The translations under genes were made by a program, and so were the position numbers. A stretch of 64,000 bases of DNA, from contig NZ_LT629971.1 in assembly GCF_900108565.1 (NCBI RefSeq), positions 496,001-560,000 on the forward strand, written 5' to 3'. This document shows, piece after piece, positions 4,854 to 35,453 of the stretch. This DNA is from Mycolicibacterium rutilum. GTDB lineage: Bacteria; Actinomycetota; Actinomycetes; Mycobacteriales; Mycobacteriaceae. How positions within the stretch are numbered: position 1 is the stretch's first letter; every line of letters starts with the position of its first letter. The notes below the pieces were generated by a model. That model was not told the origin of the DNA. It saw nothing but the letters and a program-made list of their open reading frames with translations, and did no database searches.

Positions 4854-6524
4854 TTAGCGGCGGCGGCTCTTCTTACGCGGCGGCGGCAGCGCACCCTCGG
4901 CGCGCAGCCGGGCGGCGTGCTCGGCCAGCGCCTCGACGAGCGGACCGACCGCGGCGACCTCGGGCTGCACATCGACGCGCAACCCGAATTCCGCTGCGGT
5001 TTCGGCGGTCTTGGGTCCGATGCACGCGACGATGGTGCGGGCGTGCGGCTTGCCCGCGATGCCCACCAGGTTGCGCACCGTCGAACTCGACGTGAAGCAC
5101 ACCGCGTCGAAGCCGCCCGTCTTGATCATCTCGCGGGTCTGCGCAGGCGGCGGCGCCGCGCGCACCGTGCGGTACGCGGTGACGTCCTCGATCTCCCAGC
5201 CGCGCTCGCGCAGCCCCTCGGCCAGCGTCTCGGTGGCGATGTCGGCGCGCGGCAACAGCACGCGGTTCACCGGATCGAAAACGTCGTCGTAGGGCGGGAA
5301 TTCGTCGAGCAGCCCCAGCGAGGACTGCTCACCGGTCGGCACCAGCTCGGGGTTGATCCCGAAGGCCCGCACCCGGTCGGCGGTGGCCTGCCCGACGCAG
5401 GCGATCTTCACGCCGGAGAACGCGCGGGCATCGAGGCCGAACTCGTTGAACTTCTCCCACACCGCACGCACCGCGTTGGTGGAGGTGAACACGACCCACT
5501 GGAACCGGCCGTCGACCAGACCCTTGACCGCACGCTCCATCTGCGCGGGGCTGCGCGGCGGCTCGACCGCGATGGTCGGCACCTCGATGGGCAGCGCGCC
5601 GTGGCCGACCAGCTTCTCGCTCATCTCGCCGGCCTGGTCCTTGGTGCGCGGCACCAGCACGGTCCAGCCGTACAGCGCGCGGCTCTCCCACCAGTTCAGC
5701 TTGGCGCGGTTGGCCACGGTCTTGCCGATCGTGACGACCAGCGGACCGGCCAGGGGGCCCGCCGGCTCGGTTCCGGCCGGCTTGTCCAGCACCGCCTTGT
5801 CGAGCAGACCGGCCAGCGTCGTCTCGACCGAACGCTGTTGGCACGTCGTGCCGTTCGCGGTGACGACCACCGGGGTGGTGTCGGTCAGGCCGTATTCGAT
5901 CAGCGTGCGCGCGGCGTCGGGCAGGTGGCTCGCGGTCGCGTGCAGGATCAGCGGGCCCGGTGCGGCGGCCAGCGCCGCCCAGTCGACGTCCGGGGAGCGG
6001 ACGTCGGCGACGGTGTGCGCGGAACCCAGCGGCAGGCCCGCGTACGTCGGCACCGCGGTGGTGTCCGGCAGGCCGGGCACGATCTCGAAGTTCAGGTGCG
6101 ATTTCGCCAGCGCGGACACCTCGGTGATCACCGCGTCCAGCGACAGCGGGTCGCCGGCGACCAGCCGCACCACGTCGACGCCGGTGCGCGCCTCGGTGGT
6201 CAGCGTCTTGGCCACCTCGACCGGATCGCCGACCGCGGACCGGATGTCGGGTCCGCCGGGGATCGTCGGGGCGTCACCGTCGGCCGCGCCGTCAGCCGCC
6301 TCGGCGGGTTCCGGGCCCGACGGCGGGGGCAGCTCACAGCCCACCAGGGCGAGCACGGCCTCCGGCACATCGGGGTCGGTGAACACCAGCGCTGCGTTCG
6401 CGAGCACCGCGCGGGCCCGCGTCGTCAGCAATCCGGGGTCGCCAGGCCCCGAGCCGACGAACGTGATGCGGCCCGGCTTCGGCTTGCGGCCTCGCCCGCT
6501 ACTCTGGGCAGTCATCTCAGTCAC
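4854..6524 (-). CDS. hemD: Uroporphyrinogen-III synthase fused to SUMT-like methyltransferase domain
   Basis: A 556-residue two-domain protein. Residues ~18-250 resemble uroporphyrinogen-III/tetrapyrrole methyltransferase (ITFVGSGPGDPGLLTTRA), but the second SAM loop is degenerate (RLVAGDPLSL instead of the usual KGGDP). Residues ~285-545 are the HemD synthase (LVPRTKDQAGEMSEKLVGHG, VVFTSTNAVRAVWEKF, DAVCFTSSSTVRNLVGI), which inverts ring D and closes hydroxymethylbilane. GTG 6524 is the longest start; ATG 6515 (MTAQSSGRGRK) has better-spaced GGAG and may be the true one. This fusion is usual in mycobacteria. The lysine/arginine tail is PPPRKKSRRR. Confidence 0.93.
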   Translation of the reverse strand: MTEMTAQSSGRGRKPKPGRITFVGSGPGDPGLLTTRARAVLANAALVFTDPDVPEAVLALVGCELPPPSGPEPAEAADGAADGDAPTIPGGPDIRSAVGDPVEVAKTLTTEARTGVDVVRLVAGDPLSLDAVITEVSALAKSHLNFEIVPGLPDTTAVPTYAGLPLGSAHTVADVRSPDVDWAALAAAPGPLILHATASHLPDAARTLIEYGLTDTTPVVVTANGTTCQQRSVETTLAGLLDKAVLDKPAGTEPAGPLAGPLVVTIGKTVANRAKLNWWESRALYGWTVLVPRTKDQAGEMSEKLVGHGALPIEVPTIAVEPPRSPAQMERAVKGLVDGRFQWVVFTSTNAVRAVWEKFNEFGLDARAFSGVKIACVGQATADRVRAFGINPELVPTGEQSSLGLLDEFPPYDDVFDPVNRVLLPRADIATETLAEGLRERGWEIEDVTAYRTVRAAPPPAQTREMIKTGGFDAVCFTSSSTVRNLVGIAGKPHARTIVACIGPKTAETAAEFGLRVDVQPEVAAVGPLVEALAEHAARLRAEGALPPPRKKSRRR

Positions 6525-6538
6525 TCCGCTCTGCAGCT

Positions 6539-7501
6539 TCAGTTGGTATCCGCCATGAGCTCGCGCGCCCCGAGGTCGAACAACTCCTCGGCCACCGAGA
6601 GCCCCAGCTCCCGGGCCCGGTCGGGAGTTCCGACACCGGACGCGCGGATCACGTCGGATCCGTCCAGCGTCGCCACGCAGCCGCGCAGCGACACTTCTTC
6701 GAAGACGTTGCCGTCCTCATCGATGGACTCGACCACCTCGGCGATCGCGCCCACCGGTGCGGAGCAGCCCGCCTCCAGTCGGGCGAGCAGGGCACGCTCG
6801 GCGGTGACCGCGGTGCGCGAGTCGGCGTCGTCCAGCTCCGCCAGCAGCGCGGCAAGCTCGGTGTCGTCCCCGCGGCACTCGACCGCGAGCGCACCTTGAG
6901 CCGGCGCTGGCAACATCTGCACCGGCTCGAGAGTCTCGGTGACATCGGCCAGTCGTCCGATGCGGGCCAGTCCCGCCCGTGCGACCACGATGCCGTCGAG
7001 ATCACCGTTGCTAACCCTGCTCAACCTGGTATCTAGGTTGCCTCTTAGGGGGCGGATTTCCAAACCGAGACCCAGTGCTCTAAGCTGTGCGGCCCGCCGC
7101 GGGCTCGACGTGCCGATCAGCGAGCCCGCCGGCAACTCCCCGAGCACCAGGCCGTCGCGCGCCACCAGGGCGTCGCGCGGGTCCTCACGCGGGGGTGTCG
7201 CGGCGATCGTGAAGCGCGGATCGTCGGCGGTGGGCAAATCCTTGTGCGAGTGCACCGCGGCGTCGACGCGGCCGTCGAGGATGGCCTCGCGCAGGGCAGC
7301 GGTGAAAACGCCCACACCGATGTCGGCGATCGGGCCCTGATTGCGGTCGCCCTCGGTGGAGATGATGACGAGTTCGGCGTCGTGGCCCCTGGCAATGAGC
7401 GCGTCGCGGACAGTGCCGGCCTGCGTGGTCGCCAGGAGGCTGCCCCGAGTGCCTATCCGGATAGGCCCCGAGCGTTGTGACCGGGGGGATGGGCTAGTCA
7501 A
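6539..7501 (-). CDS. hemC: Porphobilinogen deaminase (hydroxymethylbilane synthase)
   Basis: A 320-residue enzyme that polymerises four porphobilinogens into hydroxymethylbilane. The N-terminus has [16 protein letters not shown] and HSHKDLP; the dipyrromethane cofactor cysteine is in [11 protein letters not shown] near residue 245. Start TTG at 7501 lies 3 nt after the hemA stop; no ATG or GTG lies between it and the conserved IRIGTRGS. The gene probably depends on reinitiation after hemA. Other conserved features include [11 protein letters not shown] and LRGNLDTRL. Confidence 0.95.
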
Positions 7502-29976: not shown

Positions 29977-30759
29977 ATGAGCGGGCCCATCGGTCAGCTG
30001 ACCCGGGGCACCACCGGATACAACCGGTTGCGCCGCAGCGATCGCTGGCTCGTGCATGCACCACGGGTCCGCTCCGCACTCGTCTCGGCCGCCGACCCGC
30101 TCGTCGTCGACCTCGGTTACGGCGCCCTACCGGTCACCACGCTGGAACTGGCCGCCCGGCTTCGCGTGGTGCGCAACGACATCCGGGTCGTCGGCCTGGA
30201 GATCGACCCGCACCGCGTGCAGTCCGCGCGCGCCGCCGCCCCCGCCGGCGTCGAATTCGGTTTGGGCGGTTTCGAATTGGCCGGCATGCGTCCGGTCCTG
30301 GTGCGGGCGTTCAACGTGCTGCGCCAGTATCCCGTCGAAGAGGTGGCCGGCGCGTGGTCGACGATGCAGCGGCAGCTGGCTCCCGGCGGGCTGATCGTCG
30401 ACGGCACCTGCGACGAGGTCGGCAGGCGCTGCTGCTGGCTGCTGCTCGACGGCGACGGGCCCGTCAGCCTGACGCTGGCCTGCGACCCGTTCGCGATCGA
30501 GCGCCCCTCCGACCTCGCCGAGCGGTTACCGAAGGTGCTGATCCACCACAACGTCGACGGCCAACCGGTGCACGCACTGCTGGCCGCGGCCGACCGGGCG
30601 TGGGCCAGCGTCGCCGGTCACGGTGTGTTCGGCCCGCGGATCCGCTGGCGTGCGATGCTGGAGTTGTTGCGCGACAACGGTTTCCCTGTCGCTCCGGCGC
30701 GTCGCAGGATGCGCGACGGCGTTCTCACCGTGCCGTGGTCGGCTGTGGCTCCGGTGTGA
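29977..30759 (+). CDS. Class I SAM-dependent methyltransferase-like protein
   Basis: A 260-residue Rossmann protein. PLVVDLGYGALPVTTLELAA is motif I, VVGLEIDPHRVQSARAA motif II, and a topology typical of the fold follows (MQRQLAPGGLIVDGTCDE). The motif I GYGALP is a variant of GxGxG. The acceptor is unknown. The gene ends 35 bp inside the tail of the convergent symporter gene. It is not part of the M. tuberculosis block as I recall it. Confidence 0.78.
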   Translation: MSGPIGQLTRGTTGYNRLRRSDRWLVHAPRVRSALVSAADPLVVDLGYGALPVTTLELAARLRVVRNDIRVVGLEIDPHRVQSARAAAPAGVEFGLGGFELAGMRPVLVRAFNVLRQYPVEEVAGAWSTMQRQLAPGGLIVDGTCDEVGRRCCWLLLDGDGPVSLTLACDPFAIERPSDLAERLPKVLIHHNVDGQPVHALLAAADRAWASVAGHGVFGPRIRWRAMLELLRDNGFPVAPARRRMRDGVLTVPWSAVAPV

Positions 30760-32260
30760 GTGCGCGCTCTTCCACGGCGGTCTCGTCGAGCGCGTCGTCG
30801 AGATCCCGCGCCACCTGGATGTCGAGCCCGCGAAGCTGGGCGGGCCGCGTCAACAGCGACACCGTGACGTAGGTCGTGATGGCGGCGGCGAACGCGATGA
30901 ACGTCGGCCACCCGTCGAAGCTCGCAGGCACGAAATCGTTGGCGATGTAGAGGATCGTGTTGTCGACGCCGTAGATCGTCGGGGTCAGCACGAACAACAC
31001 CAGCCGCACCACCAGGCCCACCGAGATCGCCGCGAGCGCCGCCGCCGTGGTGCCGCGCCGCCACACCAGGCCGAGGATGAACGGCACCACCAGACACGCC
31101 AGCAGCAGGTCGAAGGCCAGGGTCAGCAGGATCCCGGTCTGCTTGACGTAGATCGCGAACGCGATCGAGAACACCGTCATCGGCACCATCGCGATGCGGG
31201 TGGCGCGCAGCAGCGGATCGCGCTGACCGGGCACGTGCACCCGGCGGATGCCGCCGAGGTTGCGCACGCAGACGTTGGAGATCGCCAGGATCGCGCCGTT
31301 GGCGGTGCTCATCGACGCGCCGACCAGACCGCACAGCACGATCACGGTCAGCACCGTCGGGGCGTACTCACCGAGCAGCACAAAAAGCACTGGGCCGTCC
31401 AGTTCTTCGGGCAGGAACGACTTGGCCGCCAGCACCACCAGGCCGAACGGCACACAGATCGCGACCGTGCCCGCGGCGGCCATGAAGCAGGCGCGCCGGG
31501 CGGTGGCAGGCGATTTCGCGGCGAACACGCGCTGCATGAAGTCGATGGCGACGATGTCGCCGATGCCCAACGCGATCAGCGTCGCCCAGTTGATCACCGC
31601 GCCCTGCGCCGGATCCGACAACTGGCCCATCGCGAACGGACCTGTCCCGTCGGCGATCTCGAACGTATGGGTGGAGGCCAGCCAGACGATCAGGCCGATC
31701 GCGCCGACCAGGATCAGCGACATCTGGATGATTGCGGTGTAGGCGTCGGCGATCAGCCCGCCGGTGCCGGTGTAGGCGACCGCGATCGCCGCGATCAGCA
31801 CGACGCCCAGCCAGTACGGCATGCCGAGGAAGTAGTTGAACAGGAACCCGCCCGCCACCAGGTTGCCGGCCACCAGCATGCAGAACGCGACGGCCAGCAG
31901 CGCCGAGGCGCCGACCTCCACCGACCGGCCGAACCGCAGCCGGTAGTAGTCGGGGAACGAGGTCAGCCCCATCCGGTTCATCGGCCTGGCGAAGAACAGT
32001 CCGGTCAGCGTCAGGCACAGCGCCAGCCCCAGCGGCAGGCTCGCGCCCGCCCAGAAGCCGAATTCGTATGCCAGGTCGGTGTTTCCTAGGGTGGCGTTGG
32101 TGTCGACCGCCGACCCCATCAGGGCGCCGCCGACCAACCAGTACGGCAGCATGCGGCCACCGACGAGGAAGTTGGCGCTGTCGCCCTCGATCCGTTTGGA
32201 CACGTAGAAGCCGACGAGCACGACAACCGCGATGCTGACGGCAACACCGAGAAGGATCAT
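30725..32260 (-). CDS. Sodium:solute symporter family transporter, guanidine-I riboswitch controlled
   Basis: A 511-residue SSS (SLC5-type) carrier with about 13 transmembrane helices, beginning MILLGVAVSIAVVVLVGFYV. Family marks: DSANFLVGGRMLPYW, SFPDYYRLRFGRSVEVGAS, VAYTGTGGLIADAYTAIIQM. ATG 32260 has GGGAG 6 nt upstream. The leader is a guanidine-I (ykkC) aptamer ending ~22 nt before the start, so it probably imports guanidine or a guanidine product. The divergent ureohydrolase has its own guanidine sensor. Related SSS carriers transport urea. Substrate is inferred from context only. Confidence 0.88.
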   Translation of the reverse strand: MILLGVAVSIAVVVLVGFYVSKRIEGDSANFLVGGRMLPYWLVGGALMGSAVDTNATLGNTDLAYEFGFWAGASLPLGLALCLTLTGLFFARPMNRMGLTSFPDYYRLRFGRSVEVGASALLAVAFCMLVAGNLVAGGFLFNYFLGMPYWLGVVLIAAIAVAYTGTGGLIADAYTAIIQMSLILVGAIGLIVWLASTHTFEIADGTGPFAMGQLSDPAQGAVINWATLIALGIGDIVAIDFMQRVFAAKSPATARRACFMAAAGTVAICVPFGLVVLAAKSFLPEELDGPVLFVLLGEYAPTVLTVIVLCGLVGASMSTANGAILAISNVCVRNLGGIRRVHVPGQRDPLLRATRIAMVPMTVFSIAFAIYVKQTGILLTLAFDLLLACLVVPFILGLVWRRGTTAAALAAISVGLVVRLVLFVLTPTIYGVDNTILYIANDFVPASFDGWPTFIAFAAAITTYVTVSLLTRPAQLRGLDIQVARDLDDALDETAVEERALTPEPQPTTAR

Positions 32261-32281
32261 GTGGAGCTCCCTATGCGCGAT

Positions 32282-32386
32282 GGAGTCTCCCGGGCTTTTC
32301 TCCCGCCGTGGAACGGACGCCGCAGTCCGCCTGCGCCTCTCGGACCAGACCCGCGTCGCAACGCGGCGGAACCCTAGGCGCGCCTC
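32282..32386 (-). ncRNA. Guanidine-I (ykkC-yxkD) riboswitch aptamer
   Basis: Read on the minus strand the gap contains the hallmark blocks in the right order: CTAGGGTTCCG (32377-32367), CTGGTCCGAGAG (32348-32337), CCACGG (32311-32306) and GGGAGAAAAGCCCGGGAGA (32304-32286). CCGCG/CGCGG pairing between the first two forms a stem. The only clear difference from the usual core is CCACGG instead of ACACGG. It directly precedes the symporter ribosome site, so translational control is likely; no T-tract terminator is seen. Confidence 0.93.
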
Positions 32387-32527
32387 ACAGCCTGAGCGTG
32401 AGTCGTCGACCAGACAAACCCCGCGGCGTTACGGCCGACCGCGCGCAGTGTTAACGAATTGTTTCGATTCGAGTAGCGCAGCGACCGATTCGGACAAACA
32501 ATGACCGCAGGAGCCGGTAACGGCTTC

Positions 32528-32569
32528 CCGGACGAGGTGCGTCGTACCCGGTCAGCGACAAGACGGCGC
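32528..32569 (+). ncRNA. Guanidine-III (ykkC-III) riboswitch aptamer
   Basis: CCGGACGAGGTGCGTCGTAC (from 32528) then CCGGTC, AG and CGACAAGACGGCGC follow the known ~41-nt pseudoknot. CCGG pairs with CCGG, and GCGTCGT pairs with ACGGCGC (with one G-U wobble). Compared with the Thermobifida fusca example as I remember it, there is one C-to-T change that keeps pairing and one extra base in the linker. AAGGAG (32572-32577) begins 3 nt after it, and GTG of the ureohydrolase is at 32583, so ligand binding would act on translation. Confidence 0.93.
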
Positions 32570-32582
32570 GTAAGGAGCACCC

Positions 32583-33734
32583 GTGACCGACGAGAAACCC
32601 GACTATCAACTGCCCAACGCCGAGGGCGCCTGGGCCCAGCAGGCCGAGGCGCGGCTGTCCGACCGTCGCGAACGCGAGGAGATCGAACGCAGCCTGACCT
32701 ACGGGCTCGAGGCCGCACCGACCATCAACGACCGCCGCATCTCGACGTTCGTGCGTGGCGAGCTCCCCCATTTCGCCGGGGAGCGCGGCACTTTCCTCAA
32801 GTGTCCGTTCGTCGAGGACGTCAACCAGGTCGACGACGCCGAGGTGGCGATCTTCGGCGTGCCGCTCGATGCCGGCGCGACCTACCGGCCGGGAACCCGG
32901 TTCGGGCCGCAGGGAATTCGGCGCTCCACCAACCTGTTCGGCACCTACAACTACGAGTCGGGCGTGGATCTGCGCGAGCAGCTCAACATGGTCGACATCG
33001 GTGACGTGTTCACCATCCCCGGCAACCTGGAGAAGTCGTTCGATCAGATCAGCCAGGCGATGGCGCACGTCGCGAGCAAGGGCGTCATGCCGATCGTGCT
33101 CGGCGGTGACCATTCGATCGGCTTCCCCACCATCCGCGGGCTGGCCCCGTACATGGACGGCAACGTCGGGATCATCCACTTCGACCGGCACGTCGACACC
33201 CAGGAGACCGACCTCGACGAGCGGATGCACACCACCCCGTGGTTCCACGCGACCAACATCAAGAACGCTCCCGCCACCAACCTCGTGCAGATCGGCATCG
33301 GCGGCTGGCAGGCGCCGCGCGCCGGGGTGAAGGTCGGTCGGGAGCGCAAGTCGACGGTGATCACGGTCGGCGACGTGGAGCGCGTCGGGGTGGAGAAGAT
33401 CGCCGAGATGGCGCTGGAGATCGCGTGGAAGGACGCCAAGGCGGTGTACCTGTCCTTCGACATCGACGTGATCGACGCCGGCTTCGTGCCCGGCACCGGC
33501 TGGCCCGAGCCGGGCGGTCTGCTGCCCCGCGAGGCGCTCAACCTGGTCAAGATGATCTCCGAGCCGGGCCTGGCGGGTATCGAGGTCGTCGAGTGCTCGC
33601 CGCCCTACGACTGGGCCGAGCAGACCGCGCTGATGAGTTCGCGGGTGATCCTCGACAGCCTCGCCGCCCAGGTGCGCTCGGGCAAGCTCGGCAAGAAGGC
33701 GGCGGCGCTGCCCCGGCCCGCGTGGGGGCCGTAA
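32583..33734 (+). CDS. Ureohydrolase (agmatinase family), probable guanidine hydrolase
   Basis: A 383-residue ureohydrolase with an unusually long (~80-residue) N-terminal part. Metal motifs: GGDHS (174-178), DRHVDT (201-206; D, H, D of DxHxD kept) and SFDIDVID (291-298); the next block reads GTGWPEPGG where agmatinases have GTGTPEPGG. GTG 32583 has AAGGAG 5 nt upstream, right after a guanidine-III aptamer. By context and the Trp change it is probably the Ni-dependent type that splits guanidine to urea and ammonia; plain agmatinase is the alternative. Paired with the divergent symporter. Confidence 0.9.
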   Translation: MTDEKPDYQLPNAEGAWAQQAEARLSDRREREEIERSLTYGLEAAPTINDRRISTFVRGELPHFAGERGTFLKCPFVEDVNQVDDAEVAIFGVPLDAGATYRPGTRFGPQGIRRSTNLFGTYNYESGVDLREQLNMVDIGDVFTIPGNLEKSFDQISQAMAHVASKGVMPIVLGGDHSIGFPTIRGLAPYMDGNVGIIHFDRHVDTQETDLDERMHTTPWFHATNIKNAPATNLVQIGIGGWQAPRAGVKVGRERKSTVITVGDVERVGVEKIAEMALEIAWKDAKAVYLSFDIDVIDAGFVPGTGWPEPGGLLPREALNLVKMISEPGLAGIEVVECSPPYDWAEQTALMSSRVILDSLAAQVRSGKLGKKAAALPRPAWGP

Positions 33735-33749
33735 ACCGTCACCGGGTCG

Positions 33750-33755
33750 TAGGCT
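33750..33755 (+). promoter_or_regulatory. -10 motif TAGGCT before the carbon-nitrogen hydrolase
   Basis: TAGGCT is 7 nt before ATG 33763 with no ribosome site, suggesting that this conserved gene has its own leaderless promoter besides read-through from the ureohydrolase gene. Confidence 0.5.
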
Positions 33756-33762
33756 GGGCGGC

Positions 33763-34578
33763 ATGCGGATTGCCATGGCGCAGATCCTGAGCGGAACCGA
33801 TCCGAGGGCCAACCTCGGGCTGGTCGAGAACTACACCCGCCGCGCCGCCGACGCCGGCGCCCGGATGGTGCTGTTCCCGGAGGCCACGATGTGCCGGTTC
33901 GGGGTGCCGCTCGCCCCGGTGGCCGAGCCGGTCGACGGGCCGTGGGCCGACGGGGTGCGCGCGATCGCCGAGCGCGCGGGCGTGGTCGTCGTCGCGGGGA
34001 TGTTCACGCCGTCGGACGACGGCCGCGTCCTCAACACCCTGATCGCGACCGGCGACGGCGTCGACGCGCACTACGACAAGATCCACCTCTACGACGCGTT
34101 CGGGTTCCAGGAGTCCAAGACCGTCGCGCCGGGCCGCGAACCGGTGCTGATCGACGTCGACGGGGTCCGCGTCGGGTTGACGTTGTGCTACGACGTGCGC
34201 TTTCCCGAGCTGTACGTCGAGCTGGCCGAGCGCGGGGCCGAGCTGATCACCGTGCACGCCTCGTGGGGCAGCGGGCCCGGCAAGCTCGACCAGTGGACGT
34301 TGCTGGCCCGGGCGCGCGCGATCGATACGACGGGCTACGTCGCGGCGGTCGACCAGGGCTGTCCGGCACCCGACATCGCGGCGCTGGGCCCGACCGGTGT
34401 GGGTGGCAGCCTCGTCGCGTCCCCGCTGGGTGAGGTGGTGTCCGCGGCGGGCGCCGACCCGCAGTTGGTGGTGGCCGATCTCGATCTGGAGGCCGGGCGC
34501 ACCGCCCGCGAGACCGTCGCGGTGATGAACAACCGCGCGGACTTCACTCGTCGCCGTAAGGCAGAATCGCGGGCGTGA
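33763..34578 (+). CDS. Carbon-nitrogen hydrolase (nitrilase superfamily, Rv0480c-like)
   Basis: A 271-residue amidase of the nitrilase superfamily. Catalytic triad: Glu in MVLFPEATMCRFG, Lys in HYDKIHLYDAFGF, Cys in GLTLCYDVRFPEL. Nit1/Nit2-like proteins hydrolyse amides such as deaminated glutathione; the substrate here is unproved. It lies 28 bp after the ureohydrolase but is conserved in M. tuberculosis without it, so a guanidine role is not needed. Its stop overlaps the next start as GTGA. Confidence 0.88.
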   Translation: MRIAMAQILSGTDPRANLGLVENYTRRAADAGARMVLFPEATMCRFGVPLAPVAEPVDGPWADGVRAIAERAGVVVVAGMFTPSDDGRVLNTLIATGDGVDAHYDKIHLYDAFGFQESKTVAPGREPVLIDVDGVRVGLTLCYDVRFPELYVELAERGAELITVHASWGSGPGKLDQWTLLARARAIDTTGYVAAVDQGCPAPDIAALGPTGVGGSLVASPLGEVVSAAGADPQLVVADLDLEAGRTARETVAVMNNRADFTRRRKAESRA

Positions 34579-35453
34579 CCGACCCCTGGGCCCGCCCGAA
34601 CCAGCCACCGCCTCCGCCGGAGGGCCAGCTCCCGCCGCCTCAGGGACCGCCTCCGCAGGGTCCCCCGCCGCAAGGTCCGCCGCCGCAGGGACCGCCCGCC
34701 TCGACCGGGTCGCGGCTCAAGAAGGTCTTCAGCGACCCGCTGTCGATCGTGCTGGTGTTCGTGATCGTGGTGGCGCTGGTGCTGGCCGGCCTGCTCGGCG
34801 GTGAGCTGTACGCCCGCAGCCGCGCCGACACGGTCGTCGGGCAGGCCGTGTCGTGTGTGGTGCAGGACGAGGCCAGCGCCTCGTTCGGCGTGATGCCGCC
34901 GTTCCTGATCCAGCACATGAGCGGCCACTACACCAACATCCGCGTCGAGACCGCGGGCAACCAGATCCGCGACGCCAAGGGCATGAAGGTCAACCTCGAG
35001 ATCAACGACGTCCGACTCGAGGACACCGCCAACTCGAGCGGATCGGTCGGCTCGCTCGTCGCGAACATCACCTGGTCCTCGGCGGGCATCCAGCAGACCA
35101 TCGCCGATTCGATCCCGCTCATCGGCGCGTTCGTCAACGGCGTGAGCACCAACCCGTCCGACGGCACGATCGAACTCAAGGGTGCGCTCGGCTCTATCAG
35201 GGCCAAGCCCGCCGTCGTCGACAACGGGATCTCGCTGCAGGTGGTCGAGTTGACCGGGCTGGGGTTCACGCTGCCGCGCGAAACCGTCCAGCCGGCGCTG
35301 GACGCGTTCCTCGGCCAGCTGACCAAGAATTACCCGATGGGAATCAAGGCGGATTCGGTGAAGGTCACCGATTCCGGTGTGGAGAGCCAGTTCTCGACGA
35401 CCAACGCCGACATCCCGAAGGGTCAGCAGGACCCGTGCTTCGCGGGGCTGTGA
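34575..35453 (+). CDS. DUF2993 (LmeA-like) membrane-anchored protein (Rv0479c-like)
   Basis: A 292-residue protein. Cytosolic proline-rich N-terminus with four PPPQGP-type repeats (~residues 18-42), one transmembrane helix (~57-78), then an extracytoplasmic DUF2993 domain (~95-290; CVVQDEASASFGVMPP, GMKVNLEINDVRL). LmeA of this family helps mannan elongation by binding lipid; the role here is unknown. GTG 34575 overlaps the previous stop. Confidence 0.85.
   Translation: MTDPWARPNQPPPPPEGQLPPPQGPPPQGPPPQGPPPQGPPASTGSRLKKVFSDPLSIVLVFVIVVALVLAGLLGGELYARSRADTVVGQAVSCVVQDEASASFGVMPPFLIQHMSGHYTNIRVETAGNQIRDAKGMKVNLEINDVRLEDTANSSGSVGSLVANITWSSAGIQQTIADSIPLIGAFVNGVSTNPSDGTIELKGALGSIRAKPAVVDNGISLQVVELTGLGFTLPRETVQPALDAFLGQLTKNYPMGIKADSVKVTDSGVESQFSTTNADIPKGQQDPCFAGL

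Follow-up and report, generated by a model that had tools for sequence, protein, structure and literature searches.

We describe here a putative guanidine-responsive control region of Mycolicibacterium rutilum, found in a 64,000-nucleotide stretch (assembly GCF_900108565.1, contig NZ_LT629971.1, positions 496,001 to 560,000 of the forward strand), the whole of which we refer to as the window. The region is a 322 bp gap (32261-32582) between two divergent open reading frames (ORFs), a sodium/solute symporter of the SSF family on the minus strand and a guanidinase-like enzyme on the plus strand, and it contains aptamers of two riboswitch classes, Guanidine-I before the symporter and Guanidine-III before the guanidinase. 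We think it likely that these two predicted sensors turn on both the import and the hydrolysis of guanidine in response to guanidine itself, and that the nitrogen regulator GlnR gates transcription of the two genes. The features are as follows.

30725..32260, minus strand: SSF (sodium/solute symporter) ORF, 511 residues, ATG start, predicted guanidine importer
32263..32290, minus strand: predicted expression platform of Guanidine-I, with the aptamer 3' GGAG at 32290-32287, CUCC at 32285-32282, the Shine-Dalgarno GGAG at 32270-32267 and CUCC at 32266-32263
32285..32388, minus strand: Guanidine-I aptamer, RF00442, 84.6 bits
32428..32465, minus strand: GlnR-like box, half-sites GAAAC, TTAAC, (cgcgg) and GTAAC in 11-bp steps, plus-strand starts 32461, 32450, 32439 and 32428
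32507..32572, plus strand: Guanidine-III aptamer, RF01763, 68.8 bits
32572..32577, plus strand: guanidinase Shine-Dalgarno AAGGAG, read from the sequence, directly at the end of the Guanidine-III aptamer
32583..33734, plus strand: putative guanidinase (GdmH-like) ORF, 383 residues, GTG start, Pfam Arginase 256 bits

A first-pass annotation of this DNA had placed Guanidine-I on the minus strand before a symporter and Guanidine-III on the plus strand before a ureohydrolase, and had proposed a search with the covariance models RF00442 and RF01763, which bears both assignments out. When positions 30000-35000 were compared with 4227 Rfam families by cmscan, Guanidine-I scored 84.6 bits against a gathering cut-off of 63 (E 9.2e-15, model positions 1-107 of 107) and Guanidine-III 68.8 bits against a cut-off of 36 (E 3.2e-13, model positions 1-67 of 67), both matches thus being full length, and no further Rfam family was found in this interval up to E 1. 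These two aptamers are the only gathering-level Rfam matches in the window, and the entire genome (5.99 Mb, one contig) has one Guanidine-I and two Guanidine-III matches. The aptamers, strands and genes named in the annotation are all supported, and so, by inference, is its reading of the pair as serving uptake and breakdown. The annotation did not mention the hairpin of the Guanidine-I leader, the GlnR-like box or the second Guanidine-III of the genome, all described below.

Within the Guanidine-I aptamer, GUCUGGUCCGAGAG equals the family consensus with no mismatch, and the GGUCCGAGAG block, inside which we take the subtype adenosine marker to lie, equals the RF00442 consensus with every A position retained. 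This adenosine separates guanidine-I from the phosphoribosyl pyrophosphate (PRPP) and guanosine tetraphosphate (ppGpp) subtypes of ykkC (PMC6031431). The helices covary across relatives. Those of Guanidine-I have 13 pairs with double-sided change, against a shuffled mean of 6.8, and none of 500 shuffles reaches 13. For Guanidine-III there are 33 cells with double-sided change, against 12.4 when shuffled (0 of 500 shuffles as high), and two other measures are unremarkable, the number of pairs with double-sided change (52 of 500 shuffles as high) and the pair types (304 of 500). The Guanidine-III pseudoknot CCGG/CCGG is invariant in all 33 aligned rows, and the core of the RNA is one substitution and one insertion away from the crystallised T. 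fusca RNA. We predict from these sequences that the Guanidine-I aptamer would bind guanidine and activate its gene, and that the Guanidine-III aptamer, whose core nearly equals the crystallised RNA, would bind guanidine as well.

The arrangement recurs in relatives. The best 80 of 576 loci encoding guanidinase relatives form one sample, and at E<=0.01 our own models R1 (Guanidine-I) and R2 (Guanidine-III) find their aptamers in 34 and 56 of the 80, respectively. An SSF homologue adjoins the guanidinase gene in 29 loci, 26 of which belong to the mycobacterial clade (L043, L051 and L104 being assigned to it by the guanidinase tree); Guanidine-I is present at every one of these 26, and Guanidine-III also at 25. 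Cross-tabulation of the 80 loci gives SSF with both aptamers in 25, SSF with Guanidine-I in one (L104) and SSF alone in three (Nonomuraea), and the loci without SSF fall into 27 with Guanidine-III only, five with Guanidine-I only, three with both and 16 with neither. A genus sample, which overlaps the 80-locus sample in species, has a guanidinase match at E<=1e-60 in 37 of 148 genomes; 30 of the 38 guanidinase places were taken as loci (window included), and a pattern scan finds Guanidine-III in all 30, with the 19 that have SSF being exactly those that have Guanidine-I.

In the guanidinase tree, which was built without L111, L112 and L113 (stop in the frame read), the mycobacterial pair loci fall in one supported group of 30 rows (support 99/91). 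Exceptions within it are L050 and L052 with Guanidine-III only, L053 with neither aptamer and an APC gene ahead of the guanidinase, and L104 with Guanidine-I only. In M. chubuense and M. chlorophenolicum (L050, L052), Guanidine-III and the guanidinase lie between the same neighbour genes, and SSF, Guanidine-I and the GlnR-like box are absent together. We infer from these inner exceptions that the two halves can be lost separately, with SSF travelling with Guanidine-I. One distant actinobacterium, L085 (Pseudonocardiales), has the same layout with an unrelated importer family, such that Guanidine-I (75.6 bits) precedes an APC permease and Guanidine-III (65.3 bits) precedes a divergent guanidinase, both above the Rfam cut-offs. 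Two Actinomycetospora loci (L095, L096) were considered as pairs of Guanidine-I before an APC gene and Guanidine-III before the guanidinase (77-79 and about 29 bits by our own models), but both aptamers are under the Rfam cut-offs and we do not count them as sure; the same holds for the Guanidine-I candidates in L103, L106 and L098, likewise under the cut-off.

Between the two aptamers, relatives share the block GTTAC-n17-GTTAAC-n5-GTTTC, which on the minus strand reads GAAAC-n6-TTAAC-n6-x-n6-GTAAC, with half-sites in an 11-bp register. The window copy (32428-32465) has three half-sites in register and fits the published GlnR motif, described in M. smegmatis as a box of the t,gTAAC-n6-Gc,aAAC type (PMC10704036) and as AC-n9-AC, in a paper that also reports divergent genes under GlnR control (PMC3662644). 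Of 27 pair loci, 26 have two or more half-sites in register (18 have three; the exception is L047), against 1.45% of 5400 dinucleotide shuffles; this set comprises the window, the 25 SSF pairs and L085, with L104, L095 and L096 left out. In L046, L048, L056 and L109, GAAAC takes the place of GTAAC at the outer half-site, both being GlnR forms. The box is found in none of 23 guanidinase loci that have Guanidine-III and no importer (23 of the 27 Guanidine-III-only loci, with L059, L089, L090 and L091 left out), and in two of 82 exporter loci (the 81 class-level ones described below and the exporter leader of M. rutilum itself), namely the latter and one more of the genus. This contrast with the importer-less and exporter sets is a stronger point than the shuffle test, and the motif makes it likely that transcription of both genes is gated by GlnR.

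The second Guanidine-III of the M. rutilum genome, at 5789783-5789851, lies right before a 104-residue Gdx/SugE-like exporter ORF; the two GlnR-like half-sites upstream of this leader are in register, which is rare among exporter loci. A class-level sample has Guanidine-III in 174 of 394 genomes, and among 89 loci that form the better-scoring part of the class-level matches listed (places in G442, G016, G057 and G334 were passed over), 81 have a Gdx homologue, five have guanidinase and SSF (all in the same genus) and three have neither, with Guanidine-I present at just the five guanidinase and SSF loci. Elsewhere in the class, Guanidine-III thus looks like an exporter switch. We also note that L092 (Streptomyces xiaopingdaonensis, 5404-7101) has Guanidine-III and a Gdx exporter divergent to the guanidinase, an export/hydrolysis arrangement instead of import/hydrolysis; its aptamer faces Gdx and is excluded from the count of those upstream of guanidinase.

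The symporter ORF scores above the Pfam cut-off for SSF and has the SSF fold, and we predict from its context that it imports guanidine. A different function for the locus would be detoxification and not feeding, with the guanidinase removing toxic guanidine and the symporter moving another solute (choline, proline or the like). The SSF homologues do carry database names of choline or proline transporters, 27 of the 80 loci have Guanidine-III but neither SSF nor Guanidine-I, and elsewhere in the class Guanidine-III stands mostly before Gdx exporters. We nonetheless regard detoxification as improbable, since each of the 26 SSF genes that adjoin a guanidinase gene in the mycobacterial clade has a Guanidine-I leader, the two loci that lack SSF between the same neighbours (L050 and L052) also lack Guanidine-I, the GlnR-like box tracks the importer (26/27 against 0/23 loci), an APC permease occupies the same place in L085, and comammox bacteria are described as pairing an APC permease with guanidinase (PMC11410670).

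Turning from the predicted importer to its leader, the order of blocks from the aptamer 3' end to the start codon is GGAG-A-CUCC-n11-GGAG-CUCC-AC-AUG. A minimum free energy hairpin of the same shape is found in 37 of 38 leaders when folding begins at the final GGGAG of the aptamer and runs to the start codon, with the aptamer GGAG paired to the second CUCC and the first CUCC to the Shine-Dalgarno sequence; the strict double GGAG-CUCC motif is present in 33 of the 38, and the hairpins of L011, L013, L039 and L040 pair through slightly different letters. The unpaired probability of the window Shine-Dalgarno GGAG in the computed ensemble is at most 0.02 in the free fold and 0.07-0.33 with helix P3 locked, and without the aptamer strand the remaining window hairpin weakens from -11.4 to -3.7 kcal/mol. 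The GGAG is part of the aptamer's 3' strand of P3, which is presumably the S-turn strand. P3 of Guanidine-I is reported to contain the S-turn of the binding pocket (PMC6031431). Because the conserved hairpin pairs both the aptamer 3' GGAG and the Shine-Dalgarno sequence with the two CUCC blocks, this copy of Guanidine-I probably controls translation, not termination, and a translational ON switch is the simplest reading of the folding models.

The leader could instead act by transcription termination, the hairpin being an accident of sequence rich in Shine-Dalgarno motifs, and a review gives termination as the usual mode of the Guanidine-I class (PMC12186494), to which can be added the modest energies of the single-leader hairpins. 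We consider this unlikely: 32 of the 38 leaders have an exact last CUCC, and in these the hairpin ends 0-7 bases upstream of the start codon, leaving no room for the U run of a terminator; the double GGAG-CUCC motif is retained in 33 of 38; and the longer inserts of six leaders (L011, L039, L040, L054, L055 and L060) are all confined to the hairpin loop. Several of these loop inserts in the symporter leaders carry a GGAGGCTCCGCCTCC-like palindrome, as if a small repeat were spreading.

Guanidine-III RNAs are reported to free the ribosome site and protect the mRNA when bound (PMC12186494), and by analogy we expect the copy here to act as an ON switch, with guanidine raising both translation and stability of the mRNA. 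We considered sequestration of the start codon by the aptamer (GUGACCG with CGGUCA), which appears in the computed fold of the window, but many relatives start with GUGUCC or AUGUCC and the proposal was therefore dropped. The geometry differs in slow-growing mycobacteria (L062-L081, L107), where Guanidine-III lies 88-122 bases upstream of the guanidinase start, compared with 10 in the window, and no SSF, Guanidine-I or GlnR-like box was found at these loci.

The enzyme is strongly expected to have guanidinase activity. Its sequence identity is 61.8% to 9fek (359 residues aligned) and 61.4% to 7esr (360 residues aligned), which correspond to the guanidinases of Nitrospira inopinata (9FEK) and Synechocystis (7OI1/7ESR) (PMC11410670). 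The same source names the metal ligands and, in Synechocystis numbering, the specificity residues Thr97 and Trp305; all six metal ligands (H177, D201, H203, D205, D293 and D295) and both specificity residues (T100 and W307) are kept in the window enzyme; the Trp positions suggest that chain and native numbering are shifted by 2. Readings as agmatinase (165 bits against 174.3) or arginase (100.6 against 227.6) miss the NCBIfam equivalog cut-offs. The ureohydrolase label of the first-pass annotation is sharpened to guanidinase by similarity and key residues. A substituted guanidine (methylguanidine, agmatine or the like) as the real substrate, loosely sensed by Guanidine-III and imported by the symporter, is very doubtful, given that two enzymes with demonstrated guanidine hydrolysis are 61-62% identical to this one and that both residues said to set guanidine specificity are present. 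The guanidinase of Mycobacterium sp. IS-1590 (L036) is 98% identical, that of Mycolicibacterium novocastrense (L037) is also close, and none of 11 plasmid records with guanidinases is mycobacterial. A CN-hydrolase (nitrilase-superfamily) gene follows 28 bases after the guanidinase (33763-34578, plus strand) and may be co-transcribed, and 18 of the 26 SSF loci of the mycobacterial clade have a homologue in the stretch retrieved.

Returning to the reading of the locus as a guanidine uptake and hydrolysis system, several observations weigh against it. The importer role of SSF rests on genomic context, and the Nonomuraea loci L082, L086 and L088 pair SSF with guanidinase with neither aptamer found (the SSF proteins are 59-61% identical, and divergent to guanidinase across a gap of about 50 bases), so that such a pairing is possible without riboswitches. 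Guanidine-III is weak in three of the 25 pairs (L044, L051 and L054), with 26.6-28.6 bits by R2, under the Rfam cut-off, and the loci are closely related, so that their counts are not independent. For the GlnR-like box, the outer half-site is the non-matching GTAAT in five pair loci (L044, L047, L051, L054 and L057), and the block was noticed in the alignment of related loci before the test was chosen. The hairpin is missing from one leader of 38 (L104), its energy alone is unremarkable (just 13 of 38 leaders are matched in stability by no more than 2 of 200 shuffles), and the P3-locked computed fold frees the Shine-Dalgarno sequence only in part. No conserved off-state for Guanidine-III was found in computed folds or in the leaders of relatives. 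Lastly, there is no HypB match above cut-off in the genome, with two weaker matches both lying beside urease genes; a dedicated nickel-loading protein was likewise not detected in comammox genomes, as far as the available part of PMC11410670 goes.

We favor a model in which GlnR, under nitrogen limitation, would bind the box between the aptamers and activate both genes, as the motif and its conservation suggest. When guanidine is absent, the closed hairpin would form between the Shine-Dalgarno sequence and the 3' end of the Guanidine-I aptamer and the importer would remain untranslated, and with guanidine the 3' strand would be held in the aptamer and the importer start site would open; both steps are proposed on the basis of the computed folds and their conservation. 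The guanidinase Shine-Dalgarno would be controlled by the Guanidine-III pseudoknot directly in front of it, acting as an ON switch in line with the published behavior of its class. The enzyme would then split the imported guanidine into ammonium and urea, with one of two ureases (the genome has two urease alpha genes, 894 and 816 bits) finishing the breakdown, and the second Guanidine-III before the Gdx-type exporter would be a likely overflow valve. The outcome would be a cell that feeds on guanidine only when supply and need coincide.

More tentatively, and with the balance slightly against it, the 322 bp could be a three-input region in which a DNA-binding nitrogen regulator and two structurally unrelated RNA sensors form an AND gate. 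One RNA class would then serve import and the second would serve removal, by hydrolysis at this locus and by export at the other Guanidine-III locus of the genome; the symporter would be the first sodium-symporter type for guanidine, and its Guanidine-I switch would be translational. If so, mycobacteria would have a guanidine-feeding route, guanidine biology would gain a new transporter family, and a single cell would rely on class I to import guanidine and on class III to hydrolyse and export it, under a shared nitrogen gate, a natural setting in which to ask why several RNA sensors of the same ligand persist. The first-pass suggestion of different thresholds or timing for import and hydrolysis finds no support in these results. 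Micromolar guanidine responses are reported for classes I-III, with 60 uM for one Guanidine-III (PMC5696562); a class difference in threshold or speed would become testable in one 322-bp fragment, for which natural variants without one half exist.

Our literature search, to which most subscription papers were out of reach, returned no report of Guanidine-I and Guanidine-III at one locus. A two-class locus is not new in kind, because enterobacterial loci (Raoultella, Erwinia, Klebsiella) also have two riboswitch classes for one ligand in one assimilation locus, with class I on import; however, these are described as classes I and II, with class II on carboxylase genes, the second set immediately downstream, an ABC importer and a carboxylase pathway (PMC12186494), whereas the window locus has classes I and III, divergent, with an SSF symporter and guanidinase. 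The Nitrospira inopinata locus resembles it in having importer and guanidinase and, in the available description, no local nickel chaperone, but has a single Guanidine-I before permease and guanidinase, and the permease is of the APC family; ykkC-III, which two comammox genomes have besides class I, is not near guanidine genes in the same account (PMC11410670). The Synechocystis GdmH operon shares the guanidinase family and a guanidine riboswitch, but the riboswitch is Guanidine-I and the operon has ABC-type transporter genes and hypA/hypB (PMC8390497). In Actinobacteria the same aptamer class as our Guanidine-III precedes Gdx/SugE (SMR) exporters, and ykkC-III beside SMR genes is already published (PMC8492726); the window copy precedes a hydrolase gene instead. 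The GlnR-controlled divergent nitrogen genes of M. smegmatis share the AC-n9-AC box and divergent control, but the part of the report available to us describes no riboswitch layer (PMC3662644). The new points are the conserved, probably translational hairpin of the Guanidine-I leader, the GlnR-like box between the aptamers, and the L085 layout with an APC importer.
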